Shown piece after piece: positions 18,677 through 49,120 of a stretch of DNA of 64,000 nucleotides. Every line of letters starts with the position of its first letter. The first letter of the stretch is position 1. The position numbers and the translations under genes are program-made. The DNA comes from Halomonas cerina (GTDB lineage Bacteria; Pseudomonadota; Gammaproteobacteria; Pseudomonadales; Halomonadaceae). A model generated the notes under the pieces. It was not told the origin of the DNA. It searched no databases and was given only the letters and a program-made list of their open reading frames with translations. Where the stretch lies: positions 62,001-126,000 of the forward strand of contig NZ_JACHXP010000001.1 in NCBI RefSeq assembly GCF_014192215.1, given 5' to 3'.

Positions 18677-20242
18677 ATGCGCCTGAGATTTCATTGCCAG
18701 AACCGCATCGGTATCCTGCGCGACATCGTCGCGCACTTCGCCGACTACGGGCTCAATGTGGCCCATGGCGAGGTCGGCGGCGAGCACGGCAATGCCATCT
18801 ACCTGCACGTGCCCCAGCTGCTCAATGCCCAGCTCGCCACGCTGAAGCCGGAGCTGGAAGCGGTGCCCGGTGTCTTCGGCGTCCGCCGGGTCAGCCTGAT
18901 GCCCAGCGAACGTCGCCACCTGGAGCTCGATGCCCTGCTGTCATCGCTTTCCGACCCGGTGATGTCCATCGACATGGAGGGGCACCTGGTCGCCGCCAAC
19001 CGGGCCGCCGGCCAGCTGCTGGGGGTGCGCATCGATGAGGTGCCGGGGCTGTCGCTGGACCGTTACCTGCCCGACCTGGACCTGCCGGCGTTGATTCGTC
19101 GCAACAATGCCCGGGTCAATGGGTTGAGGGTCAAGCTGCGTGACACCGTCTTCCTGGCCGATATCGCCCCCCTGCACCGCGAGAAGCTCGAGGACGTGGC
19201 CTCCCTGGCCGGGGCGGTGGTCACGCTACACCGGGCGGACCGCATCGGGGAACGCATCTACCAGGTGCAACGCCAGGCACTGCGCGGCTTCGAGACGATC
19301 TTCCAATCGAGTCCTCGTCTGGCGGCCTTGATCCGTGAGGCCCGACGCATGGCGCCCCTGGAGGCGCCGTTGCTGATCCAGGGCGAGACGGGCACCGGCA
19401 AGGAGTTGCTGGCGCGGGCCTGCCACCTGGCCAGTGCCCGGGGACAGGCGCCGTTCATGGCGCTGAACTGCGCTGGACTGCCCGAATCCATGGCCGAGAC
19501 CGAGCTGTTCGGCTATGCACCGGGGGCCTTCGAGGGGGCAAGGCCCGAGGGCAAGCTGGGGCTGCTGGAGCTGACGGCCGGCGGCACCATCTTCCTCGAT
19601 GAAGTGGGCGAGATGAGCCCGCGCCTGCAGGTCAAGCTGCTGCGCTTCCTCCAAGATGGCGGGTTTCGCCGAGTGGGCAGCGACGAGGAGACCTACCTGG
19701 ATGTCCGGGTGATCTGTGCCACCCAGCAGGACCTGCCGGCGCTGTGTGCCCAGGGGCAGTTCCGGCAGGACCTCTATCACCGGCTGAATGTGCTCTCGCT
19801 GAGCGTGCCGCCGTTGCGGGATTGCCTGGACGGGCTCGAGGAGCTTGCCGCTCAGTTCATCGATCGAGCCGCCCGCCAGATCGGTTGTACGCTACCCGCC
19901 ATCTCGGAGGCGGCCCTGGCCAGGCTGCGGGCCTATCACTGGCCAGGCAACGTGCGCCAACTCGAGAACGTGCTCTTCCAGGCAGTCTCGCTGTGCGAGC
20001 GTGGCGTCATCGAGCCGCGCCACCTGCGCCTGCCCGAGGTAGGCCAGCCTTCCGGGCTGGCCGGCATCGACCTCGAGGGGTCGCTGGCCGAGATCCTCGG
20101 CGAGGTGGAGCGCCGGGTGCTGACGACGCTCTACCCCCGTTACCCCTCGAGTCGCCAGCTCGGCAAGCGGCTCGGCGTCTCGCATACCACCATCGCCAAC
20201 AAGCTCAAGCGCCATGGTATCGGCTTGGAGGAGGACGACTGA
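18677..20242 (+). CDS. phhR: TyrR/PhhR-type regulator of aromatic amino acid metabolism
   Basis: 521 residues with the TyrR architecture: ACT domain (about 1-75), PAS (about 80-165), AAA+ ATPase (about 205-430) and C-terminal helix-turn-helix (about 490-515, RQLGKRLGVSHTTIANKL). Walker A is GETGTGKE at 236-243; Walker B is in GGTIFLDEVGE. The sigma-54 contact loop reads GAFEGA (283-288) rather than GAFTGA, and the TyrR branch is known to act at sigma-70 promoters. It is divergent from phhA with two PhhR-type boxes between. Likely role: phenylalanine/tyrosine-responsive activator of phhABC and hppD. Confidence 0.94.
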   Translation: MRLRFHCQNRIGILRDIVAHFADYGLNVAHGEVGGEHGNAIYLHVPQLLNAQLATLKPELEAVPGVFGVRRVSLMPSERRHLELDALLSSLSDPVMSIDMEGHLVAANRAAGQLLGVRIDEVPGLSLDRYLPDLDLPALIRRNNARVNGLRVKLRDTVFLADIAPLHREKLEDVASLAGAVVTLHRADRIGERIYQVQRQALRGFETIFQSSPRLAALIREARRMAPLEAPLLIQGETGTGKELLARACHLASARGQAPFMALNCAGLPESMAETELFGYAPGAFEGARPEGKLGLLELTAGGTIFLDEVGEMSPRLQVKLLRFLQDGGFRRVGSDEETYLDVRVICATQQDLPALCAQGQFRQDLYHRLNVLSLSVPPLRDCLDGLEELAAQFIDRAARQIGCTLPAISEAALARLRAYHWPGNVRQLENVLFQAVSLCERGVIEPRHLRLPEVGQPSGLAGIDLEGSLAEILGEVERRVLTTLYPRYPSSRQLGKRLGVSHTTIANKLKRHGIGLEEDD

Positions 20243-35916: not shown

Positions 35917-37442
35917 TGGAGACCCTTGGCTTCCTGATCGACGGCTTCGGCGTCGCCTTGGCGCCGCACAACCTGATGTTCGCCCTGCTCGGGGCCTTCC
36001 TCGGCACCCTGATCGGCGCCCTGCCGGGGCTCGGCCCGGCCAACGGCGTGGCGATCCTGATTCCGCTGGCCTTCACCCTGGGGCTCGCCCCGGAAACCGC
36101 CATGATCATGCTTACCGCGGTCTATGCCGGCGCCATGTACGGTGGGCGCATCTCGTCGATCCTGCTCAACATCCCCGGTGATGAGCCGGCGATGATGACC
36201 TGCCTCGACGGCTATCCCATGGCGCAGCAGGGCAAGGCCTCCGAAGCCCTGGCGATCTCCGCCGTGGCCTCGTTCATCGGCAGCCTGATCGCCACCATCG
36301 GGCTGATCCTGCTGGCGCCGTTGCTGGCCGATTTCGCCTTGACCTTCGGGCCGGCGGAGTACTTCGCGCTCTTCCTGCTGGCCTTCGCCACCCTCGGGGG
36401 CATCACCGGCAAGAACCCCATGAAGACCGTGGTGGCCGCCGCCATCGGGTTGATGATCGCCACTGTGGGCATCGATTCCACCGGAGTGCAGCGCTACACC
36501 TTCGGCGTGCTCGAGCTCTACGAGGGCGTGGACTTCATCATCGCCATCGTCGGGTTGTTCGCCATCTCCGAGCTGCTGTTCTTTATCGAGGAGAAGGCTG
36601 GCGGCGGCAAGGCGAAGATGGCCGTCAACAAGCTCACGCTCAGCTGGAAGGACATCCGCAACATCCTGCCGTCCAGCTTTCGGGGCGGTGTGCTGGGCTT
36701 CATCGCCGGGGTATTGCCCGGGGCAGGGGCATCGCTGGGCAGTTTCATCGGCTATACCCTCGAGAAGAAGGTCGTGGGCAAGAAAGGCTACTTCGGCCAG
36801 GGCGACCCGCGCGGCGTGGCCGGCCCCGAGGCCGGCAACAACGGCGCTTCGAGCGGGGCACTCGTGCCCATGCTGACGCTTGGCGTGCCGGGTAGCGGCA
36901 CCACCGCGGTGCTGCTGGCGCTGCTGATCTCACTGAACATCACCCCCGGGCCGCTGATGTTCACCCAGAATGCCGACATCGTGTGGGGCGTGATCGCCGC
37001 GCTACTGATCGGCAACTTCCTGCTGCTGTTGCTCAACATCCCGCTGGTGGGCATCTTCGTCAAGCTGCTCTCGGTGCCGCCGATGTATCTGCTGCCGGTG
37101 GTGACCATGATCGCCTTCGTGGGGATCTACTCGATCAGTAACACCACCTTCGATCTCTACTTCATGGTGGCCTTCGGCGTTGCCGGGTACATCTTCCGCA
37201 AGTTGGAGATCCCGCTGGTGCCGATCATCCTCGGGTTGCTGCTGGGGCCGGAGATGGAGAAGAACCTGCGCCACGCCATGGACATCTCCGACGGCGACTG
37301 GACCATCCTGTGGGACAGTGGCCTGGCCATCGGCCTGTGGGTGTTCGCCGGGCTGGGGCTGATCCTGCCCTATATCGTCGGGCCCATCCTGCGCCGGCGC
37401 ATGCAGGTCCAGACCGGCACAGGCGGTCCCGAAAGCGACTGA
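35916..37442 (+). CDS. tctA: Tripartite tricarboxylate transporter large membrane subunit
   Basis: 508 residues, about 12 helices, the main permease of the TTT system. Two family signatures are visible: GTLIGALPGLGPANGVAILIP near residue 30 and a second in GVLPGAGASLGSFIGYTLEKK with PEAGNNGASSGALVPMLTLGVPGSGTTAVLL downstream. It uses the ion gradient to import the acid delivered by TctC. A good terminator follows 30 bases downstream, so tctCBA is a closed operon. Confidence 0.96.
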   Translation: METLGFLIDGFGVALAPHNLMFALLGAFLGTLIGALPGLGPANGVAILIPLAFTLGLAPETAMIMLTAVYAGAMYGGRISSILLNIPGDEPAMMTCLDGYPMAQQGKASEALAISAVASFIGSLIATIGLILLAPLLADFALTFGPAEYFALFLLAFATLGGITGKNPMKTVVAAAIGLMIATVGIDSTGVQRYTFGVLELYEGVDFIIAIVGLFAISELLFFIEEKAGGGKAKMAVNKLTLSWKDIRNILPSSFRGGVLGFIAGVLPGAGASLGSFIGYTLEKKVVGKKGYFGQGDPRGVAGPEAGNNGASSGALVPMLTLGVPGSGTTAVLLALLISLNITPGPLMFTQNADIVWGVIAALLIGNFLLLLLNIPLVGIFVKLLSVPPMYLLPVVTMIAFVGIYSISNTTFDLYFMVAFGVAGYIFRKLEIPLVPIILGLLLGPEMEKNLRHAMDISDGDWTILWDSGLAIGLWVFAGLGLILPYIVGPILRRRMQVQTGTGGPESD

Positions 37443-37471
37443 TCCCGCCGCTCATTCACCCTGCTGATTCG

Positions 37472-37510
37472 CGGGGGTGCCGAGGCGATCGGTGCCCCCG
37501 TTCTCTTTTC
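37472..37510 (+). terminator. Intrinsic terminator after tctA
   Basis: A 12-bp stem (CGGGGGTGCCGA paired with TCGGTGCCCCCG, two G-T wobbles) with a 5-base loop, then TTCTCTTTTC. Confidence 0.8.
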
Positions 37511-37525
37511 ATCAAGGCCGTTCGG

Positions 37526-37540
37526 GCACTAATTCGGTGC
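37526..37540 (+). promoter_or_regulatory. NtrC-like enhancer site 1 upstream of urtA
   Basis: GCAC-TAATTCG-GTGC is a perfect match to the NtrC dyad GCAC-N7-GTGC. It lies about 155 bases upstream of the sigma-54 promoter, a normal enhancer distance. Confidence 0.7.
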
Positions 37541-37588
37541 ATTGCACCATGGTCCCGTCCCCCGGCGGAGCGTGAAGAGGTCATTTCT

Positions 37589-37603
37589 GCACCATGGCGA
37601 TGC
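37589..37603 (+). promoter_or_regulatory. NtrC-like enhancer site 2 upstream of urtA
   Basis: GCAC-CATGGCG-ATGC matches the NtrC dyad with one mismatch in the right half. It is 63 bases (six helical turns) from site 1, so two NtrC dimers could bind on one face. Confidence 0.5.
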
Positions 37604-37681
37604 GTCCGGGGGTGGTGTCGACACCTGTTTGATTGGTGCAAAAATTTGATTGTAAAGGAATAATTTTGATTATGCGCGGGC

Positions 37682-37696
37682 TGGCACGTGCCTTGC
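37682..37696 (+). promoter_or_regulatory. Sigma-54 promoter of the urea regulon
   Basis: TGGCACG-N4-TTGC, an exact -24/-12 element (consensus TGGCACG-N4-TTGC). Transcription would start near 37706-37708, about 37 bases before the urtA ATG. An AT-rich stretch precedes it. Together with the NtrC-like dyads this predicts NtrC control of urt-ure. Confidence 0.85.
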
Positions 37697-37743
37697 GATG
37701 GACTGGGCGTCCCATAATAAGTGCCATACGCAAGGAGATCACC

Positions 37744-39063
37744 ATGACCCCACGTCGTCTCGCCCTGTGTCCTCATTGGCTCGCCGCCTCGCTGTTGAGC
37801 CTCGGGGTCGTCGCCCCCGCGATGGCCCAGGAAGAGCCCATCAAGGTCGGCATCCTGCACTCGCTCTCCGGCACCATGGCGATCAGCGAGACGGTGCTCA
37901 AGGACACCGTAGAGATGCTGATCGAGCAACAGAACGCGAGGGGCGGCCTGCTGGGCCGTGAACTCGAGGCGGTGGTGGTCGATCCGGCCTCCGACTGGCC
38001 GCTGTTCGCCGAGAAGGCCCGCGAGTTGCTGGCCCAGGAAAAGGTCGATGTCATCTTCGGCAACTGGACGTCGGTATCCCGCAAGTCGGTGCTGCCGGTG
38101 GTCGAGGAACTCAACGGCCTGCTCTTCTACCCGGTGCAGTACGAGGGCGAGGAGTCGTCCGAGAACGTCTTCTACACCGGCGCGGCGCCCAACCAGCAGG
38201 CGATTCCCGCCGTCGACTACCTGATGAACAACGTCGGCGTGGAACGCTGGGTGCTGGCCGGTACCGACTACGTCTATCCGCGCACCACCAACAAGATCCT
38301 CGAGGCCTACCTGAAGTCGCACGGCGTGTCCGACCAGGACATCATGGTCAACTACACGCCCTTCGGTCATTCCGATTGGCAGAATATCGTCTCCGAGATC
38401 AAGGCGTTCGGCAGCCAGGGCAAGAAGACTGCGGTGGTCTCGACCATCAATGGCGATGCCAATGTGCCCTTCTATCGTGAGCTCGGCAACCAGGGCATCG
38501 ACGCCGCCGACATCCCAGTAGTGGCCTTCTCGGTGGGCGAGCAGGAGCTCACCGGCATCGACACGGCCCCCCTGGTGGGCCACCTGGCCGCCTGGAACTA
38601 CTTCATGAGCGTCGATACCGACGCCAACTATGACTTCATCGACGCCTGGATCGAGTATACCGGCGACGACATGGCGGTCACCAACGACCCGATGGAGGCC
38701 CACTACATCGGCTTCAGCATGTGGGCCGAAGCGGTGCGCAAGGCGGGCACCACCGAGGTGGACGCCGTCAAGGATGCCATCATCGGGGTCTCGGTACCCA
38801 ACCTCTCCGGCGGCTACGCGGCCATGATGCCCAACCACCATATCACCAAGCCGGTGCTGATCGGCGAGATCCAGGACAACGGCCAGTTCTCCATCGTCTG
38901 GGAGACGCCTTCCACCGTGGCCGGCGACGCCTGGTCCGACTACCTACCCGGGTCGCGTGACCTGATCAGCGACTGGCGCAAGCCGATGCAGTGCGGCAAC
39001 TACAACGTCGTCGAAGGCAGCTGCGGTGGCGGTACCAGCGAGGATGTCGCGACGGCGGAATGA
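37744..39063 (+). CDS. urtA: Urea ABC transporter substrate-binding protein
   Basis: 439 residues; start after AAGGAGATCACC, signal peptide ending near AMA/QEEP (residue 28). It is the periplasmic urea receptor of the Urt system, a leucine-binding-type fold: KVGILHSLSGTMAISE at the mature start, ASDWPLFAEKARELL, IFGNWTSVSRKSVLPV, LFYPVQYEGEESSENVFYTG and SGGYAAMMPNHHITKPV. These are specific to the UrtA branch. First gene of urtABCDE and served by the sigma-54 promoter. Confidence 0.96.
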   Translation: MTPRRLALCPHWLAASLLSLGVVAPAMAQEEPIKVGILHSLSGTMAISETVLKDTVEMLIEQQNARGGLLGRELEAVVVDPASDWPLFAEKARELLAQEKVDVIFGNWTSVSRKSVLPVVEELNGLLFYPVQYEGEESSENVFYTGAAPNQQAIPAVDYLMNNVGVERWVLAGTDYVYPRTTNKILEAYLKSHGVSDQDIMVNYTPFGHSDWQNIVSEIKAFGSQGKKTAVVSTINGDANVPFYRELGNQGIDAADIPVVAFSVGEQELTGIDTAPLVGHLAAWNYFMSVDTDANYDFIDAWIEYTGDDMAVTNDPMEAHYIGFSMWAEAVRKAGTTEVDAVKDAIIGVSVPNLSGGYAAMMPNHHITKPVLIGEIQDNGQFSIVWETPSTVAGDAWSDYLPGSRDLISDWRKPMQCGNYNVVEGSCGGGTSEDVATAE

Positions 39064-39136
39064 TCCCACCTGCGGGCCGGCGATGCCGGCCCGTTCCCCC
39101 GACACGCCACTCAATGCTTATTCCAAGGATACGTCC

Positions 39137-40735
39137 ATGAGGATCCCCGACTCCCTCTGCCGGCTGGTGGTCCTGTGCCTGCTGGCCTGGTTACCCTGGG
39201 TCGCCCAGGCACAGGACGATCCCGGTCAGACCTTGCTCGAATCCCTCGATACCACCTCCTATGTCGAGAAGGGCGAGGCGATCGAGGCCATCATCGCCAG
39301 CGGCGACGAGCGCAGTCGTCGCTGGCTCGAGGCGCTGCTCGGCGGCAAGCTGCAGCGCCACAAGGCGTCCGGTCAGTTCGTCGTGGTCCTCGAGAACCGC
39401 GGCCGCCATTGGCCGGTAGTCGATGCACTCGGTTTCGAGGAGGCCGGCGAGATGTCGCGCCGAGAACTCGATCGTATCGGCATCAACAATGCGCTGCGTG
39501 GTCAGCTGCAGGGCGCGCTGGCGGTGCTGGATCTGCATGCCGACGAGGTGGACGAGCGTCGCGAGGCGGCCCGAGCGCTGCTCGGCGACATCGATGCCAC
39601 CCTGGCCGAGCCGCTCCAGGCGCTGATCGACAGCGAAGAGGACGGCGAGGTGCGTCGTCTGCTCGAGCAGGCGCTGGCCATCCACCGCCTCGGGCAGGGC
39701 GAGATGGCCGCCGTCGAGGACCTGGCCGGTAGCCTGAACAGCCGCGTGCGCGCCGCCTTGAGTTCGGCGAGCCGCAGCGACGACCCGCAGCTTGCCCAGG
39801 CCGCTGGCGCCGCCCTGGTCGATATCGAGCAGAAGATGAAGCTCAATCGCGGCCTGGAGACCCTCTACTTCGGGCTCTCGCTGGGCTCGGTGCTGGTGCT
39901 GGCGGCCATCGGTCTGGCGATCACCTTCGGCGTCATGGGCGTGATCAACATGGCCCACGGCGAGTTGATCATGCTCGGTGCCTATACCACCTGGGCCATG
40001 CAGCAGCTGCTGCCCGGCCAGCCCGGCCTGGCGCTGCTGCTGGCGATTCCCGCCGGCTTCCTGGTGGCGGCGCTGGCCGGGGTGGCCATCGAACGCGGCG
40101 TTATCCAGTTCCTCAAGGGACGTCCTCTGGAGACCCTGCTGGCCACCTTCGGCGTCAGCCTGATCCTGCAGCAGCTGGTACGTACCGTGATCTCGCCGCA
40201 GAACCGCACCGTGGTTAGCCCGGACTGGATGAGCGGCTCGATCATGATCAACGAGGGACTGTCTCTGACCCTCAATCGCCTCTATGTGCTGGGTTTCGCC
40301 CTGGTGGTGTTCGCCGGCCTGATGCTGGTCATGCGTCGTACCCGCCTGGGCTTGGAGGTGCGGGCGGTGACCCAGAACCGTGCCATGGCGCGTTCGATGG
40401 GCATCCGCGCGACCCGTGTGGACATCCTGACCTTCGCCTTGGGCGCCGGCGTAGCGGGACTCGCCGGGGTGGCGCTCTCCCAGCTCACCAACGTGGGGCC
40501 CAACCTCGGCCAGAACTACATCATCGACTCCTTCATGGTGGTGGTGTTCGGCGGCGTGGGAAATCTGTGGGGTACCCTGGTGGCCGGCATGTCGCTGGGC
40601 GTGATCAACCAGGTGTTGGAGCCCTGGGCCGGTGCCGTGCTGGCCAAGATCGTCGTGCTCGTGTTCATCATCCTGTTCATCCAGAAGCGCCCCCGCGGAC
40701 TCTTCCCGCAGAAGGGCCGGGCGGCGGAGGGCTGA
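39137..40735 (+). CDS. urtB: Urea ABC transporter permease UrtB
   Basis: 532 residues, LivH-type permease. Unlike ordinary LivH it has a signal peptide (to about AQA/QDD, residue 25) and a 210-residue periplasmic N-terminal region, which is usual for proteobacterial UrtB. The membrane part (about 240-525) starts ETLYFGLSLGSVLVLAAIGLAITFGVMGVINMAHGE and ends in NYIIDSFMVVVFGGVGNLWGT. The ATG is 73 bases after urtA. Confidence 0.95.
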   Translation: MRIPDSLCRLVVLCLLAWLPWVAQAQDDPGQTLLESLDTTSYVEKGEAIEAIIASGDERSRRWLEALLGGKLQRHKASGQFVVVLENRGRHWPVVDALGFEEAGEMSRRELDRIGINNALRGQLQGALAVLDLHADEVDERREAARALLGDIDATLAEPLQALIDSEEDGEVRRLLEQALAIHRLGQGEMAAVEDLAGSLNSRVRAALSSASRSDDPQLAQAAGAALVDIEQKMKLNRGLETLYFGLSLGSVLVLAAIGLAITFGVMGVINMAHGELIMLGAYTTWAMQQLLPGQPGLALLLAIPAGFLVAALAGVAIERGVIQFLKGRPLETLLATFGVSLILQQLVRTVISPQNRTVVSPDWMSGSIMINEGLSLTLNRLYVLGFALVVFAGLMLVMRRTRLGLEVRAVTQNRAMARSMGIRATRVDILTFALGAGVAGLAGVALSQLTNVGPNLGQNYIIDSFMVVVFGGVGNLWGTLVAGMSLGVINQVLEPWAGAVLAKIVVLVFIILFIQKRPRGLFPQKGRAAEG

Positions 40736-40741
40736 TTCATC

Positions 40742-41872
40742 ATGTGGCTGACAAGACCATTGCGTGAACGTTCGACGCAGCTTTTCCTGGGTATCCTGCT
40801 GGCCGCCCTGGCGCTGGTGACGCTGCTCAACCTGACGCTGCCGGCCGCGCATCCGCTGCATGTCTCGACCTATACCGTGACGCTGCTCGGCAAGTACCTG
40901 AGCTATGCGCTGCTCGCCGTGGCGGTGGACCTGGTGTGGGGCTACCTGGGTATCCTCAGCCTGGGGCACGGTGCCTTCTTCGCCCTGGGGGGCTACGCCA
41001 TGGGCATGTACCTGATGCGCCAGATCGGCGATCGAGGCACCTATGGTGATCCGGTGCTGCCGGATTTCATGGTGTTCCTCAACTGGGACAGCCTGCCCTG
41101 GTACTGGCTGGGCTTCGACATGCCGTGGTTCGCCTTCCTGATGGTGTTGCTGGCGCCGGGCCTGCTGGCCCTGGTGTTCGGCTTTCTGGCGTTCCGCTCG
41201 CGGGTCACCGGCGTGTATCTGTCGATCATTACCCAGGCCATGACGTTCGCGCTGATGCTGGCCTTCTTCCGCAACGAGATGGGCTTCGGCGGCAACAACG
41301 GCCTGACCGACTTCAAGGAGCTGCTGGGCTTCGACCTGCGCAGCGACGCTACCCGGCTGGGGCTGTTCATTGCGACCGGCATCGCCCTGGCGCTGGGCTA
41401 TGTGGTGTGCCGCGCGATCGTCGCCAGCAAGCTCGGCCGGGTCAGTGTGGCCTGTCGCGATGCCGAGGCACGCACGCGCTTCCTGGGCTACCGGGTCGAG
41501 CGCTTCCAGCTGTTCGTGTTCGTGGTCTCGGCGATGCTCGCCGGGGTGGCGGGTGCGCTCTACGTGCCCCAAGTGGGCATCATCAATCCCAGCGAGTTCT
41601 CGCCGATCTTCTCCATCGAGGTGGTGCTCTGGGTGGCCCTGGGCGGCCGCGCGACCCTCTACGGGGCGGTGATCGGGGCGCTGCTGGTCAACTACGCCAA
41701 GACGGTGTTCACCGGCGTGATGCCCGATGCCTGGCTGTTCGCCCTGGGGGGCCTGTTCGTGTTGGTCACGGTCTTCCTTCCCAAGGGGATCGCCGGCCTG
41801 CTCGATCTGCGTATCAAACGCCGCTCGGCCACGTCCGATTCCACGCCAGCCACAGGGGAGGCCACCGCATGA
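40742..41872 (+). CDS. urtC: Urea ABC transporter permease UrtC
   Basis: 376 residues, LivM-type permease pairing with UrtB. About ten helices; signature stretches are DLVWGYLGILSLGHGAFFALGGYAMGMYLMR, NNGLTDF and the EAA-like loop around FLGYRVERFQLFVFVVSAMLAGVAGALYVPQ. Separated from urtB by 6 bases; its stop overlaps urtD as ATGA. Confidence 0.95.
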   Translation: MWLTRPLRERSTQLFLGILLAALALVTLLNLTLPAAHPLHVSTYTVTLLGKYLSYALLAVAVDLVWGYLGILSLGHGAFFALGGYAMGMYLMRQIGDRGTYGDPVLPDFMVFLNWDSLPWYWLGFDMPWFAFLMVLLAPGLLALVFGFLAFRSRVTGVYLSIITQAMTFALMLAFFRNEMGFGGNNGLTDFKELLGFDLRSDATRLGLFIATGIALALGYVVCRAIVASKLGRVSVACRDAEARTRFLGYRVERFQLFVFVVSAMLAGVAGALYVPQVGIINPSEFSPIFSIEVVLWVALGGRATLYGAVIGALLVNYAKTVFTGVMPDAWLFALGGLFVLVTVFLPKGIAGLLDLRIKRRSATSDSTPATGEATA

Positions 41873-42714
41873 ACATCCTGAAATCCCTGGCCGACCGGGA
41901 TCGCGTCTTCGACTTCCTGGTGCCGGTCGCGTCCCCGGTGGACGTGCGCCATGGCCCCATCCTCTATCTCGAGGACGTCAGTGTCAGTTTCGACGGTTTC
42001 AAGGCCATCAATGATCTCAATCTGACCATCGATGACGGTGAGCTGCGCTGCATCATCGGCCCCAACGGGGCGGGCAAGACCACCATGATGGATATCATCA
42101 CCGGCAAGACACGTCCGGACACCGGCCAGGTGTGGTTCGGCAGCCGCCATGACCTGCTGACCCTGAATGAGCCACAGATCGCCAGCCTCGGCATCGGGCG
42201 TAAGTTCCAAAAGCCCACGGTCTTCGAGGCGCTCTCGGTGTTCGAGAACCTGGAGCTGGCCATGGCCGCCGACAAGCGCATCCTGCCCACGCTCACCGCC
42301 CGCCTGACCGGCGAGATTCGTGATCGCATCGAGGAGGTGCTCGCCACCATCGGCCTCACCGAACTGCGCTATGGCCCGGCGGGTATCCTCTCCCACGGCC
42401 AGAAGCAGTGGCTGGAGATCGGCATGCTGCTGATGCAGCGGCCACGCCTGCTATTGGTGGACGAGCCAGTCGCCGGTATGACCGAGCAGGAGATGGAGCG
42501 CACCGCCGAGCTGTTGACCGGCCTGGCCGGCAAGGGCAAGCAGTCGGTCGTCATCGTCGAGCATGACATGGGCTTCGTGCGCTCCATCGCGCGCACCGTG
42601 ACGGTGCTCCACCAGGGCAGCGTGCTGGCGGAAGGCAGCATGGACAAGGTTTCCAGTGATCCTCGGGTGGTCGAGGTCTACCTGGGTGCCGACCCGGACG
42701 TGGAGGCCGCCTGA
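41869..42714 (+). CDS. urtD: Urea ABC transporter ATP-binding protein UrtD
   Basis: 281 residues, LivG-type ATPase with a short N-terminal extension. Walker A GPNGAGKTT (about residue 66), Q-loop in GRKFQKPTVFE, signature LSHGQKQWLEIGMLL (His in place of the second Gly of LSGGQ, as usual in UrtD), Walker B LLLVDEPVAGM and the H-loop VEHDM. It powers urea import with UrtE. 4-base overlap with urtC, 1-base overlap with urtE. Confidence 0.95.
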   Translation: MNILKSLADRDRVFDFLVPVASPVDVRHGPILYLEDVSVSFDGFKAINDLNLTIDDGELRCIIGPNGAGKTTMMDIITGKTRPDTGQVWFGSRHDLLTLNEPQIASLGIGRKFQKPTVFEALSVFENLELAMAADKRILPTLTARLTGEIRDRIEEVLATIGLTELRYGPAGILSHGQKQWLEIGMLLMQRPRLLLVDEPVAGMTEQEMERTAELLTGLAGKGKQSVVIVEHDMGFVRSIARTVTVLHQGSVLAEGSMDKVSSDPRVVEVYLGADPDVEAA

Positions 42715-43412
42715 TGCTGACTATCGACTCCCTCAACCAGTACTACGGCGAAAGCCATACCCTCTGGGACCTGGATCTCGAGGTACCGGCCGGCCAATGC
42801 ACCTGCGTGATGGGGCGTAACGGGGTGGGCAAGACCACCCTGATGAAGGCGATGATGGGCGAGGTGCCCGTGGCGGGTGGCAGTATCCGCTATGCCGATG
42901 AGGTGGAGCTGACGAAGAAGCGGGTAGAGGACCGCTCGCGGCTGGGCATCGGCTATGTCCCCCAGGGTCGCCAGATCTTCCCGCTGCTCACCGTGGAGGA
43001 GAACCTGCGTACCGGCCTGGCTGCCCGGGGCGATGGTCGCAAGTCGATCCCCGAGCGCATCTACGAGCTCTTCCCGGTGCTACAGGAAATGCGCCATCGC
43101 CGGGGAGGCGATCTTTCCGGTGGCCAGCAGCAGCAACTGGCCATCGGCCGGGCCCTGGTCCTCGAGCCGCGCCTGCTGATCCTGGATGAGCCGGGCGAGG
43201 GCATTCAGCCCAATATCGTGGCGCAGATCGGCGAGGTGATCCGGCGGTTGATCGCCGAGGATGGCCTCACCGTGCTGCTGGTGGAGCAGAAGCTGCCCTT
43301 CGCGCGCAAGTATGCCGATCGTTTCGTGATCATGGATCGCGGCCGGCCGGTGGCCGATGGCGAGATCGAGGCACTCACCGATGCACTGATCAAGGAGCAC
43401 CTCACGGTGTAG
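42714..43412 (+). CDS. urtE: Urea ABC transporter ATP-binding protein UrtE
   Basis: 232 residues, LivF-type ATPase. It begins LTIDSLNQYYGESHTLWDLDLEV, UrtE-like; Walker A GRNGVGKTT, Q-loop YVPQGRQIFP, signature LSGGQQQQLAIGRAL, Walker B LLILDEPGEGIQPN. The last transporter gene; ureD starts 8 bases later, so uptake and hydrolysis are one operon. Confidence 0.96.
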   Translation: MLTIDSLNQYYGESHTLWDLDLEVPAGQCTCVMGRNGVGKTTLMKAMMGEVPVAGGSIRYADEVELTKKRVEDRSRLGIGYVPQGRQIFPLLTVEENLRTGLAARGDGRKSIPERIYELFPVLQEMRHRRGGDLSGGQQQQLAIGRALVLEPRLLILDEPGEGIQPNIVAQIGEVIRRLIAEDGLTVLLVEQKLPFARKYADRFVIMDRGRPVADGEIEALTDALIKEHLTV

Positions 43413-43420
43413 GCTGCCGC

Positions 43421-44314
43421 ATGACCGTTTTCGAGACTTCGCTTGATGACACTTCGCCATCGGCGTCCGGGCACCGCTTCGATGCCGGGCGTCGCTGGGA
43501 CGCCTTCCTGGACCTTGGCTTCGCACCCCGCGACGGGGTGACGCGGCTGGTCCGGGCGCGCCACCAGGGACCGCTGCGGGTCCAGCGGCCCTTTTACCCG
43601 GAAGGGCGCCAGGGGGCCTGTCACGTCTATCTGCTGCATCCACCCGGCGGCTTGGTCAGCGGCGATGCCCTGACCATCTCGGCGCGGGTCGAGACGGGGG
43701 CCCATGCGCTGATCACCACCCCCGCCGCCAACAAGCTATACCGCGCCGATAGCCAGGGCGTGGCCTGGTCCCAGCAGACCCACCTGGCGGTCGAGGCCGG
43801 CGGCGCCCTGGAGTGGCTGCCCCAGGAGACGATCGCCTTCGATGGCTCCCGGGGCGCGCAGCACACCACCATCGCGCTTTCCGGCGACGCCCGTAGTCTG
43901 GGCTGGGAGGTGCTGGCGCTGGGACGACCGGCCAGTCGCTTGCCCTATCTCACCGGGAGCATCGACCAGCGTTTCCGACTGTTTCGGGACGGCCGGCCCC
44001 TGTGGCTGGAGCGCCAGCCCCTGAATCCCCAGCATCCGCGCTTCACCGGTCGCTGGGGGCAGGGTAGAGCCAGCATCCAGGCCACCCTCTGGGCCGTGGG
44101 CCTGCCCGACGAGCGGGACGCGATCGAGGCGCTGCGCGAGGCCCTGCCGGCCTCGCCACGCTGGGCGGTGACGGTGCGCCACGGCGTGCTGCTGCTGCGC
44201 TACCTGGGCGATGAGCGTAACGAGGCCTGGGATCTCTGCCAGGGCGCGTGGGAGGTGCTCAGGCCGCGATTGCTCGGCCAGCCGGCACATACGCCGCGGA
44301 TCTGGTTGACCTGA
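43421..44314 (+). CDS. ureD: Urease accessory protein UreD
   Basis: 297 residues. UreD (UreH) is the scaffold that docks UreF and UreG on apo-urease for nickel loading. Family text includes GPLRVQRPFYPEG, CHVYLLHPPGGLVSGD, ALITTPAANKLYR and EWLPQETIAFDG. Length fits. It precedes ureA, the usual place. A short CGAGGC/GCCTCG hairpin follows right after the stop, before ureA. Confidence 0.95.
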   Translation: MTVFETSLDDTSPSASGHRFDAGRRWDAFLDLGFAPRDGVTRLVRARHQGPLRVQRPFYPEGRQGACHVYLLHPPGGLVSGDALTISARVETGAHALITTPAANKLYRADSQGVAWSQQTHLAVEAGGALEWLPQETIAFDGSRGAQHTTIALSGDARSLGWEVLALGRPASRLPYLTGSIDQRFRLFRDGRPLWLERQPLNPQHPRFTGRWGQGRASIQATLWAVGLPDERDAIEALREALPASPRWAVTVRHGVLLLRYLGDERNEAWDLCQGAWEVLRPRLLGQPAHTPRIWLT

Positions 44315-44416
44315 CGAGGCTCCGCCTCGGCTGCGAGCGACGCGCTACGGGCATCGAGCACCATCCTGTCGAAGCCCGAAGCCCGAATTCCAACGCATGA
44401 AGAGGGAGCAACGCCC

Positions 44417-44719
44417 ATGGAACTAACCCCCCGAGACAAGGACAAGCTGCTGCTGTTCACCGCGGCCCAACTCGCCGAGCGTCGCCGCGCACGCGGTCTC
44501 AAGCTCAACTATCCGGAAGCCGTGGCGCTGATCAGCTTCGAGATCCTGGAAGGGGCCCGCGACGGCAAGAGCGTCGCCGAACTGATGAGCCATGGTCGCG
44601 AGATCCTGACCCGCGACGACGTGATGGAGGGCGTGGCCGAGATGGTCGACGAGGTGCAGGTGGAGGCGACCTTTCCCGATGGGACCAAGCTGGTCACGGT
44701 TCATAATCCGATTGTGTGA
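44417..44719 (+). CDS. ureA: Urease subunit gamma
   Basis: 100 residues, the exact family size. It begins [23 protein letters not shown] and contains [14 protein letters not shown] and [13 protein letters not shown] at the end. Structural subunit of the (alpha-beta-gamma)3 enzyme in the cytoplasm. Separate ureA and ureB genes are the typical bacterial form. A GAGGGAG ribosome site lies upstream. Confidence 0.98.
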
Positions 44720-44783
44720 GGTAGGTGAGGAGTGAGGTGTGACTCCTTGCCCCTTGCCCCTCACGCGACGAAGGAGCGATCAC

Positions 44784-45100
44784 ATGATTCCAGGTGAATA
44801 TCAGCTGAAGGACGGCGAGATCGCGCTCTGCGAGGGACGTGAGCGCATCACCGTCGAGGTCGCCAATACCGGCGACCGTCCCGTCCAGGTGGGTTCTCAC
44901 TACCACTTCGCCGAGGCCAACCCGGCGCTTCACTTCGACCGTGACCAGGCCCGCGGCCGCCGCCTGGACATCGCCGCCGGCACCGCCATCCGCTTCGAGC
45001 CCGGCCAGACCCGCGAGGTGACGCTGATTCCCTATGCCGGCGCGCGGCATATCTATGGCTTTCGCGGTGAGGTGATGGGCAAGCTGGATGGAGGCAAGTC

Positions 45101-45104
<4 letters not shown>
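44784..45104 (+). CDS. ureB: Urease subunit beta
   Basis: 106 residues from the family-standard MIPGEY start behind GAAGGAGCGATC; an upstream in-frame start is not needed. Hallmarks: [39 protein letters not shown] and YGFRGEVMG. Structural subunit. Its stop overlaps the ureC start as ATGA. Confidence 0.98.
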
Positions 45105-46813
<1,709 letters not shown>

Positions 46814-46879
46814 GCGCCCAGCGCCCAGCGCCATGGCCCTAGACTCGGCCAGGAGGCTGAACAGAACGGAGTAGACAAA

Positions 46880-47377
46880 ATGTTGAGATTGACCGAGCGC
46901 CTGGGACCCATTGCGGCGAGCCAGGCTACCGACAGCCTGATGCTGCCTTATGAACTGCGCATCCGAGGGCGGCTCAAGACAGTGAGCGATGCCGGACGCG
47001 AGCTCGGCCTGTTCCTGGATCGCGGACCGGTGCTGCGCGATGGTGAGGGGCTGCGCGCCGAAAACGGCGAGGTGGTGCGTATCCGCGCTGCCGACGAGCC
47101 GGTGATCACCGCACGGGTCTTGGCCGGTCTGCCGCTGGCCCGCCTGGCCTATCATTTGGGCAATCGCCATGTGCAGCTGGCACTGGGCGAGGATGAGAAG
47201 GGCGGCTTCGTGCGCTTCCCGCCGGACCATGTGCTGGAGACGCTGGCCGAGCGGCTCGGGGCGACCCTGGAGCGCTTTGATGCGCCCTTCGACCCGGAGC
47301 CGGGCGCCTACCAGCAGCCGGACGGCCATGAGCATGGCCATCATCACCACGATCATGCGCGTGTCCATGCGCACTGA
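46880..47377 (+). CDS. ureE: Urease accessory protein UreE (nickel carrier)
   Basis: 165 residues. A peptide-binding-like N-terminal domain (about 1-75) and a metal-binding domain (about 76-145) with YHLGNRHV, where the conserved histidine binds nickel. The tail [18 protein letters not shown] is a histidine-rich nickel store, like Klebsiella UreE. It hands nickel to UreG. The end overlaps the likely ureF start. Confidence 0.95.
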   Translation: MLRLTERLGPIAASQATDSLMLPYELRIRGRLKTVSDAGRELGLFLDRGPVLRDGEGLRAENGEVVRIRAADEPVITARVLAGLPLARLAYHLGNRHVQLALGEDEKGGFVRFPPDHVLETLAERLGATLERFDAPFDPEPGAYQQPDGHEHGHHHHDHARVHAH

Positions 47378-48080
47378 GTCGTCGGGGGCCGGGCAGGGTG
47401 ACGACTTGGCGCTGCTGGGCCTGCTGCAGCTGGTCAGCCCAGCGCTGCCAATTGGCGCCTTCGCCTTCTCCCAGGGGCTCGAGAGCGCCTTCGAGCTGGG
47501 CTGGGTCTCCGATGAGGCGAGCCTCGGCGCCTGGCTCGCCGGCGTGCTCGACGATGGCCTGACACGCTGTGAGCTGCCGGTGCTGGCGCGCCTGCACCGG
47601 GCCTGGGCCGAGGCGGACGGCGAGGCCATCGTCGAGTGGGATACCTGGCTCGCCGCCAACCGCGAGACGGCGGAGCTGGCTGCCGAGGACAGCCGGCTGG
47701 GGGCATCGCTGGCACGGCTGTTGGCGAGCCTGGCGCTGCTGCCGGATAGCCTGTCACGAGAGACGCCGGCACTGCCCGCAGGCGCGGGTTACGTGACGGT
47801 GTTTGCCTGGACAGCCCATGCCAGGGGCATAGCGGTGCGTCAGGCGCTGCTCGGTTTCGCCTGGTCCTGGCTGGAGAACCAGCTGGCCGTGGCCTGCAAG
47901 GCGTTGCCGCTAGGTCATACCGCCGCCCAGCGGCTGGTGGAGCGGTTGCGCCCGGCGTTGGTGGACGCCGTGGACCAGGCCCTGGCGCTGGAAGATGACG
48001 AACTGGGCCCGGCGCTGCCCGGGCTGGCCCTGGCCAGCGCCCTGCATGAGACCCAGTATTCGCGGTTGTTTAGAAGTTGA
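47367..48080 (+). CDS. ureF: Urease accessory protein UreF
   Basis: About 237 residues. UreF is the all-helical protein that gates UreG GTPase action in the UreDFG complex. Core motif: [21 protein letters not shown], then GWVSDEA and a late [19 protein letters not shown]. The start is uncertain: two further in-frame ATGs lie within 30 bases upstream inside ureE, and none has a good ribosome site, suggesting coupling to ureE translation. Confidence 0.92.
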
Positions 48081-48121
48081 GAGACGAAAGAAGACGGAAG
48101 AGGGTATTCGTACTTCTTCAA

Positions 48122-48134
48122 GTCGCGAAGCGAC
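48122..48134. repeat. Small hairpin in the ureF-ureG gap
   Basis: GTCGC-GAA-GCGAC sits inside a purine/pyrimidine-skewed segment (48080-48170) whose ends are imperfectly complementary (GAAAGAAGACG near the start, CGTCTTCACTC near the end). It looks like a REP-type intergenic element. Repeat status cannot be tested within this window. Confidence 0.4.
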
Positions 48135-48193
48135 GTCTTCACTCTTTCTTCTCATCATTTCCCGGACGTTGCATTCATGCAAGGAGAAATTCG

Positions 48194-48856
48194 ATGACCC
48201 ATTGCCTGCGTATTGGTGTCGGCGGCCCGGTGGGCTCCGGCAAGACCGCCCTGCTCAAGCAGCTGTGCCTGGCGCTGCGCGACCACTATGATATCGCCGT
48301 GGTCACCAACGACATCTATACCCGCGAGGACGCCGACTTCCTGCTCAAGCACGAGGCCCTGCCCGCGGGCCGTATCCTCGGGGTCGAGACCGGTGGCTGT
48401 CCGCATACGGCGATCCGCGAGGATGCCTCCATGAACCTGGCGGCCATCGATGAACTCCAGGCACGCCATCCCGGCCTCGAGCTGGTGCTGGTGGAGTCCG
48501 GTGGGGACAACCTCTCGGCCACCTTCAGCCCCGAACTCTCGGATCTGACCCTCTATGTGATCGACGTCTCCGCCGGGGATAAGATCCCGCGCAAGGGCGG
48601 GCCAGGTATCACCAAGTCGGATTTGCTGATCATCAACAAGATCGACATCGCCGAGCAGGTGCATGCCTCGCTCGAGGTGATGGAGCGCGACTCCCGCAAG
48701 ATGCGCGGCGAGCGGCCGTTCGTCTTCACTAACCTCTACGATGGTGTGGGACTCGAGGAGGTCATCCGTTTCATCCTCGACCGGGGCATGCTGCCGGAGC
48801 GCCGGCCGCCGGAGCGCCGGCCGCCGGAGCGCCGGTCCGAGTCCGTCACCGTCTGA
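48194..48856 (+). CDS. ureG: Urease accessory GTPase UreG
   Basis: 220 residues; start behind AAGGAGAAATTCG, not the longer upstream frame. SIMIBI-class GTPase: P-loop GGPVGSGKT at 10-18, [15 protein letters not shown], the nickel-binding CPH in [30 protein letters not shown] and the NKID base motif. GTP hydrolysis drives nickel insertion into UreC. Oddity: the C-terminus carries three copies of PERRP, encoded by a 15-base tandem repeat, beyond the normal family end. Confidence 0.96.
48794..48838 (+). repeat. Three 15-bp tandem repeats at the ureG 3' end
   Basis: Three consecutive copies of ccggagcgccggccg (the third ends gtcc) encode the PERRP-type repeats at the UreG C-terminus. Copies 1 and 2 are identical, so copy number may vary between strains. 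Confidence 0.85.
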
Positions 48857-48892: not shown

Positions 48893-49120
48893 ATGAACGC
48901 CCTACTTTCCTTCATTACTCATGCGGGTATCTCGGCAGCTACGCTGTTGCCATCCGGTATCATTCTGGCCCATTCCGGGCATGGTGCCCCAGAGATGCAT
49001 GCCCATGCCGGTAGTCCGTCACTGATGGCGGTGCTGGCCGTCGTCACGCTGGGCATGGCCGCCCTGGTGCCGCTGGCGCGGCTCGTCCTACGGCGCCGTC
49101 GGCTTCGCCACCCGCGCTGA
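48893..49120 (+). CDS. Small histidine-rich membrane protein after ureG
   Basis: 75 residues with a GGGAGAACGTCCC ribosome site. An N-terminal hydrophobic segment (about 10-26) leads to a His cluster HSGHGAPEMHAHAG (27-40), then a second helix (about 44-62) and a basic tail LRRRRLRHPR. I do not recognise a family. The AHSGHG junction recalls HupE/UreJ nickel permeases, but the protein is far too short to be one. As the last gene of the urease cluster, a role in metal handling at the membrane is a fair guess. Confidence 0.6.
   Translation: MNALLSFITHAGISAATLLPSGIILAHSGHGAPEMHAHAGSPSLMAVLAVVTLGMAALVPLARLVLRRRRLRHPR

Follow-up and report, generated by a model that had tools for sequence, protein, structure and literature searches.

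A predicted IHF-assisted, NtrC-activated sigma-54 promoter ahead of the urea transport and urease genes of Halomonas cerina

Comparison of sequences across the family indicates that the promoter of the urtABCDE-ureDABCEFG genes of Halomonas cerina is very probably of the sigma-54 type, activated by NtrC and assisted by IHF. The kind of switch is ordinary, and the only surprise is the rigid layout in which its elements are kept across relatives. The elements were located in a stretch of 64 kb of the Halomonas cerina genome, referred to here as the window, and were then compared with the urtA upstream regions of the genus, the family and the order.

Promoter elements and gene unit in the window

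The sigma-54 -24/-12 consensus is TGGCAC-N5-TTGC, that of NtrC is a dyad of the GCAC-N7-GTGC type, and in IHF-assisted sigma-54 promoters a match to the IHF consensus is expected between the activator sites and the promoter. General descriptions of this kind served in the scans as sigma-54 weight matrix, as NtrC dyad and as IHF consensus. The exact TGGCACG-N4-TTGC element that the original prediction had placed ahead of the urtA ATG was found by pattern scan, with weight-matrix scoring in relatives, at 37682–37696 on the plus strand (TGGCACGTGCCTTGC); 47 bases separate its end from the ATG at 37744, and a ribosome-binding site, AAGGAG, was read from the sequence at 37732–37737(+). No exact match other than TGGCACGTGCCTTGC occurred in the 64 kb (0.05 expected; at least one in 5 of 100 shuffles), and when up to two mismatches were allowed the count of 31 was at chance level (27.4 expected). 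In the whole genome (4.17 Mb) the exact element occurs five times, and when one mismatch is allowed the count rises to 108, compared with 59 for the reversed pattern. The delineation of a regulon from sigma-54 matches alone was dropped; 30 loci were checked, comprising the 5 exact matches and 25 of the 103 with one mismatch, and urtA was the only one of these with an exact dyad upstream, a dyad with at most one mismatch being present at four of the 30, urtA among them.

Upstream of the sigma-54 element, the predicted perfect GCAC-N7-GTGC dyad is present at 37526–37540 (GCACTAATTCGGTGC; centre 37533, -149 from the first T of TGGCACG), followed by a proximal dyad of the same type with one mismatch at 37589–37603 (GCACCATGGCGATGC; centre 37596, -86 from the same T), the two centres being 63 bp apart. 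The motif scan additionally revealed two extra half-sites absent from the original prediction, one adjoining the distal dyad (TTGCACCA, 37542–37549) and the other overlapping the IHF site (TGGTGCAA, 37634–37641). Exact GCAC-N7-GTGC dyads showed no excess over chance in the window (3 versus 2.96 expected), and neither did those with at most one mismatch (51 versus 60 expected). The judgement of the dyads from the window alone was rejected, as these counts equal those of shuffles, and outside evidence was therefore required; the significance of the dyads lies in their position and their conservation in relatives. The IHF consensus WATCAANNNNTTR, which the original prediction had omitted, is matched exactly by AATCAAATTTTTG at 37639–37651 on the minus strand, the only match in 64 kb (0.07 expected). 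The distance from its centre is 49 bp to the proximal dyad and 44 bp to the middle of the -24/-12 element.

The region is preceded by genes of a tricarboxylate transporter, identified as TctC and TctA by Pfam, 3' of which a terminator-like hairpin of 13 pairs with a T-rich tail was found at 37471–37501(+), another feature absent from the original prediction. The urt-ure unit spans 37744–48856, about 11.1 kb, and lies entirely on the plus strand. All five urt genes scored above their cut-offs, namely urtA, encoding the substrate-binding protein of a urea ABC transporter (37744–39063; TIGR03407), and urtB, urtC, urtD and urtE (39137–43412; TIGR03409, TIGR03408, TIGR03411 and TIGR03410, respectively). 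They are followed at 43421–48856 by ureD, ureA, ureB, ureC, ureE, ureF and ureG, assigned by NCBIfam and Pfam, so that a UrtABCDE transporter is present with urease and its accessory genes. The urease gamma, beta and alpha subunits (ureA, ureB and ureC) were identified by NCBIfam, and ureD, ureE and ureF by Pfam, ureD matching Pfam UreD and having no NCBIfam match at 1e-20, while the probable assignment of ureG rests on a CobW/HypB/UreG Pfam domain and on gene order. An open frame of 75 residues, among them several histidines and a hydrophobic segment (48893–49120(+)), starts 36 bases after ureG and may be part of the urease unit. No structured RNA matched Rfam at the gathering score in 37400–44450.

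Whether one promoter would serve the whole unit bears on a different reading, in which the urease half is transcribed mainly from a promoter of its own, in the 102-base gap between ureD and ureA or elsewhere, and the sigma-54 promoter serves urtABCDE, perhaps with ureD, alone. The gap could hold such a start, and in 10 of the 72 genus genomes urtA and ureD lie at a greater distance (4) or on separate contigs (6). Nevertheless, only 8 bases separate urtE from ureD, no sigma-70-like site was found by scan on the plus strand inside the unit, and terminator-like sites within it were at shuffle level (3 versus 3.1). Given that 62 of the 72 genus genomes that have both genes carry ureD on the strand of urtA, 5.7–7.0 kb further downstream, a separate urease promoter is regarded as rather unlikely, and a single transcript from the sigma-54 promoter is the preferred reading.

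Conservation of the layout among relatives

urtA was present in 72 of 90 genus genomes and in 108 of 151 family genomes (cut-offs 1e-60 and 1e-100). The family set, drawn from 160 distinct genomes with urtA, consisted of 132 urtA upstream regions from 19 genera, that of the window included; two second copies of urtA, 38–40% identical, were left out, and the relatives are non-independent samples. A sigma-54-like element scoring at least 10 was found upstream of urtA at 117 of the 132 loci, in 12 genera (Markov null 8.3%; other strand 10/132), and one scoring at least 12.2 at 111 (null 3.6%; other strand 4/132). The score of 10 was not reached at 15 of the 132 loci, including all examined loci of 7 of the 19 genera. 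The exact pair GCAC..GTGC at a gap of 7 occurred at 62 of the 117 loci, compared with 1.8 expected, and when gaps from 0 to 15 were considered the runner-up reached only 6 (0.9 expected). Similarly, when each of the 256 possible w-N7-rc(w) dyads was counted, GCAC ranked first, with 62 regions versus 19 for the second.

The dyads were also fixed in position. With at most one mismatch, a dyad centred at -145 to -152 was present in 53 of the 117 relatives (36 exact) and one at -83 to -89 in 60 (38 exact); both occurred together in 37, from 9 genera, and at least one in 76, from 11 genera. Two short intervals, 8 positions wide around -148 and 7 wide around -85, took in 74 of 91 exact dyads. At the 49 of 117 loci that had a codon anchor, the distance from the sigma-54 element to the codon ranged from 167 to 414 bp (sd 45.5 bp), whereas the distance of exact dyads to the sigma-54 element had a within-cluster sd of only 0.91 bp (13 dyads) and 0.54 bp (10 dyads), the two clusters having been picked after the pile-ups were visible, with 2 of 25 exact dyads falling outside them. 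A third, middle dyad at -113 to -120 was seen in 27 of the 117 relatives and is absent from the window, and no dyad with at most one mismatch was found at 15 of the 117 loci.

The original prediction had placed a second near-match six helical turns closer to the promoter than the perfect dyad. The one-mismatch dyad 63 bp nearer bears out its presence, but exact phasing did not hold in the relatives. Among the 37 with both dyads, the spacing was 63 bp in 18, 62 bp in 1, 64 bp in 4, 65 bp in 7 and 66 bp in 7. Six helical turns is thus the commonest spacing and not a rule; strict helical phasing of the two dyads was not upheld and is unproved because 14 of these 37 pairs lie 65–66 bp apart.

The IHF site was conserved in the same manner. 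At offset -43 and in the same orientation, the 117 loci contained 8 exact matches, 42 with at most one mismatch (8 genera) and 75 with at most two, compared with a median count of 0 across offsets; none of 60 permuted consensuses reached 42 at any one offset, the best of them reaching 17. The presence of the IHF site was weakly associated with that of the proximal dyad (49/85 versus 11/32, p = 0.037, uncorrected for relatedness) and not significantly with that of the distal dyad (42/85 versus 11/32, p = 0.21). This association was also considered as proof of a hinge and was set aside as too weak.

These comparisons bear on the reading in which the elements are motifs that arose by chance in an AT-rich intergenic stretch. 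The dyads of the window are indeed no more frequent than expected; against this stand the position-specific conservation, which extends to as many as 11 genera, and the unbiased motif controls. Conservation makes the chance reading very unlikely, to the point of being negligible.

Other motifs were observed in the same upstream regions. Everted half-site pairs, GTGC-N3-GCAC, occurred at 18 of the 117 loci. A palindrome like TTTGTATACAAG recurred at particular offsets upstream of the relatives' urtA, namely -165 (genera g6, g12, g20 and g21), -54 (g2) and -29/-30 (g4), at loci L070–L077, L081, L089, L151, L152, L154, L157, L162 and others. GTATAC was present at 27 of the 117 loci (2.0 expected), and no such palindrome was seen in the window's own urtA upstream region. 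In genus g4 (L154, L157–L159, L161, L163, L164 and L167), all eight urtA promoters are without the IHF site and both fixed dyads, and seven of the eight carry a changed element, A/GGGCACG-N4-ATGC, with an altered -12 part, and the GTATAC palindrome at -29/-30.

At the level of the order, urtA was present in 98 of 195 genomes; 92 lay outside the family, from which 84 loci of 24 other families were examined. A sigma-54 score of at least 10 was reached at 49 of these 84 loci, in 17 families (null 6.5%; reverse strand 11/84), and dyads with no more than one mismatch were present at 37 of the 49 (null 11%) and exact dyads at 9 (null 0.4%). The dyads outside the family occupied scattered positions, and in one order-level family (f19) none was found at -148 or -85, so that a fixed -148/-85 layout for the whole order was not upheld. 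As the element and the dyads recur in other families at scattered positions, the control of urtA by sigma-54 and an NtrC-type activator seems to predate the family, whereas the fixed layout looks to belong to this family.

Nitrogen regulators of the genome and known systems

The regulators that such a promoter would require are encoded in the genome. Profile searches yielded one copy of rpoN (TIGR02395, above cut-off), one ihfA above cut-off and one ntrC above cut-off, the last directly after ntrB. Across the whole genome the extended dyad TGCAC-N7-GTGCA was found with at most one mismatch at 62 places, compared with 39 for the reversed pattern, and exactly two of these were perfect. The two perfect dyads precede glnA and ntrB, which ties the motif to nitrogen control and NtrC in this genome, and the urtA dyad belongs to the 60 places with one mismatch. 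Downstream of the ntrB dyad comes TGGCGCGCTTCTTGC, with 46 bases between its end and the start of ntrB. In the glnA promoter (L172), the perfect dyad has its centre at -139, and an exact IHF consensus at -42 and a sigma-54 candidate with two mismatches come after it; the offset of this IHF site is close to that at urtA and its orientation is opposite. A one-mismatch sigma-54-like element, TGGCATGCAACTTGC (G000:C15:89026-89040), starts 124 bases before the rpoN match, so that rpoN might be read by its own product, though the element may be a chance match.

A real sigma-54 promoter could be served by an enhancer-binding protein other than NtrC, as 12 of the 38 matches of the NtrC search in the genome, NtrC included, cover an NtrC-like central domain. 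One of the 12 is a TyrR-like protein encoded in the window (18677–20242(+); NF008085 at 497 bits, below the cut-off of 576), but its gene lies 17 kb from the urtA promoter, and in this genome the same type of dyad is perfect only before glnA and ntrB. Another activator is accordingly given little likelihood. The single rpoN and the single ntrC, the glnA and ntrB dyads and the spacing conserved in the family together lend support to the NtrC/sigma-54 control of urt-ure that had been proposed from the window alone.

In Klebsiella and E. coli the principal NtrC sites of glnA lie about three turns apart, whereas the dyads of the window lie six turns apart and an IHF site is located between enhancer and promoter. 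IHF-assisted sigma-54 enhancers are exemplified by glnHp2, nifH and Pu; the promoter described here differs from these in its target, urtA, and in positions that are kept over many genera of the family.

A biosensor study describes the urtA promoter of Pseudomonas putida as a sigma-54 promoter that responds to nitrogen and is activated by NtrC (PMC8050072). An NtrC/sigma-54 promoter at urtA has hence been described before, and that predicted ahead of Halomonas cerina urtA is a further case. According to the same source, ureD (PP_2842) is far from urtA (PP_4841) in P. putida, unlike the single urt-ure cluster found here. The urtABCD genes of P. putida were reported to be induced under nitrogen limitation and were regarded by the authors as putatively controlled by NtrB/NtrC (PMC7801951), while urease gene expression and growth on urea were reported to depend on ntrC in P. 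stutzeri (PMC8443478). In open-licence literature, as judged by titles and the beginnings of abstracts, nothing was found on NtrC together with urea transport, or on NtrC together with RpoN, in Halomonas.

Layouts of a comparable kind have been described elsewhere. A class of sigma-54 enhancers is reported to have activator sites within 200 bp and, usually near the middle of the loop, an IHF site, with IHF raising or lowering expression depending on the position of its site (PMC4740811); activator sites within 200 bp and a roughly midway IHF site are predicted here likewise. The NtrC sites of glnA in Klebsiella and E. coli, located some 90 and 140 bp before the start, are reported to tolerate long distances, and a promoter with two NtrC sites (nifLA) to depend on the face of the helix (PMC7408454). 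Paired upstream NtrC sites, as described there for glnA and nifLA, are also predicted for urtA.

Some evidence from P. putida favours a reading in which urtA is transcribed mainly, or in addition, from a sigma-70 promoter and expression survives the loss of RpoN. According to Table 2 of PMC7801951, nitrogen limitation induced urtA of strain KT2440 12.7-fold in the wild type, 11.12-fold in an rpoN mutant and 75.03-fold in a relA/spoT mutant. These values, as tabulated, speak against strict RpoN dependence in P. putida, the best-known relative, unless they are explained by leakiness of the mutant or by a second promoter, and since urtA was still induced in the rpoN mutant RpoN dependence is not to be taken for granted. 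In the window, a weak sigma-70-like site was found at 37618–37645 (expected count there 0.2). Across the 37 relatives that have the two dyads, by comparison, information peaks at the -24/-12 element and is low over -64 to -44, which argues against this reading. A sigma-70 promoter as an additional or main source of urtA transcripts is thus considered unlikely, and transcription from the sigma-54 promoter remains the preferred explanation.

Proposed mechanism and significance for urea use

The sites, their positional conservation and the rpoN, ntrBC and ihfA genes were observed directly, and from them we infer protein binding, DNA bending, the start of transcription, co-transcription and the response to nitrogen. 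When nitrogen is short, NtrB would phosphorylate NtrC, dimers of which would occupy both dyads, spaced by about six turns, and form an active ring. A bend imposed by IHF at 37639–37651, about midway between dyad and promoter, would fold NtrC onto the sigma-54 polymerase at 37682–37696, and ATP hydrolysis by NtrC would then open the urtA promoter, with urtABCDE-ureDABCEFG being transcribed from about 37708.

NtrC enhancers are commonly described as distance-tolerant. A tentative explanation of the fixed layout is that the promoter may work as a rigid folded assembly instead of a free loop, in which the sigma-54 element, a pair of NtrC dimers spaced by six turns and a hinge made by IHF, its arms about 49 and 44 bp long, are kept in register; if so, it is IHF that would make distance matter. 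Most positions between the dyads, the IHF site and the sigma-54 element, as well as the length of the leader, have changed while the layout has been kept (both dyads in 9 genera, either in 11). Additionally, the one genus with a sigma-54 element and no IHF site in its eight loci (g4) also lacks the fixed dyads. The 117 natural promoters offer a test bed for the question of whether IHF makes a distance-tolerant NtrC enhancer distance-strict.

For this bacterial family, the arrangement provides a concrete candidate element for the nitrogen control of urea use. It predicts that urea uptake and urease, and hence the release of ammonia, would be raised only under nitrogen limitation.
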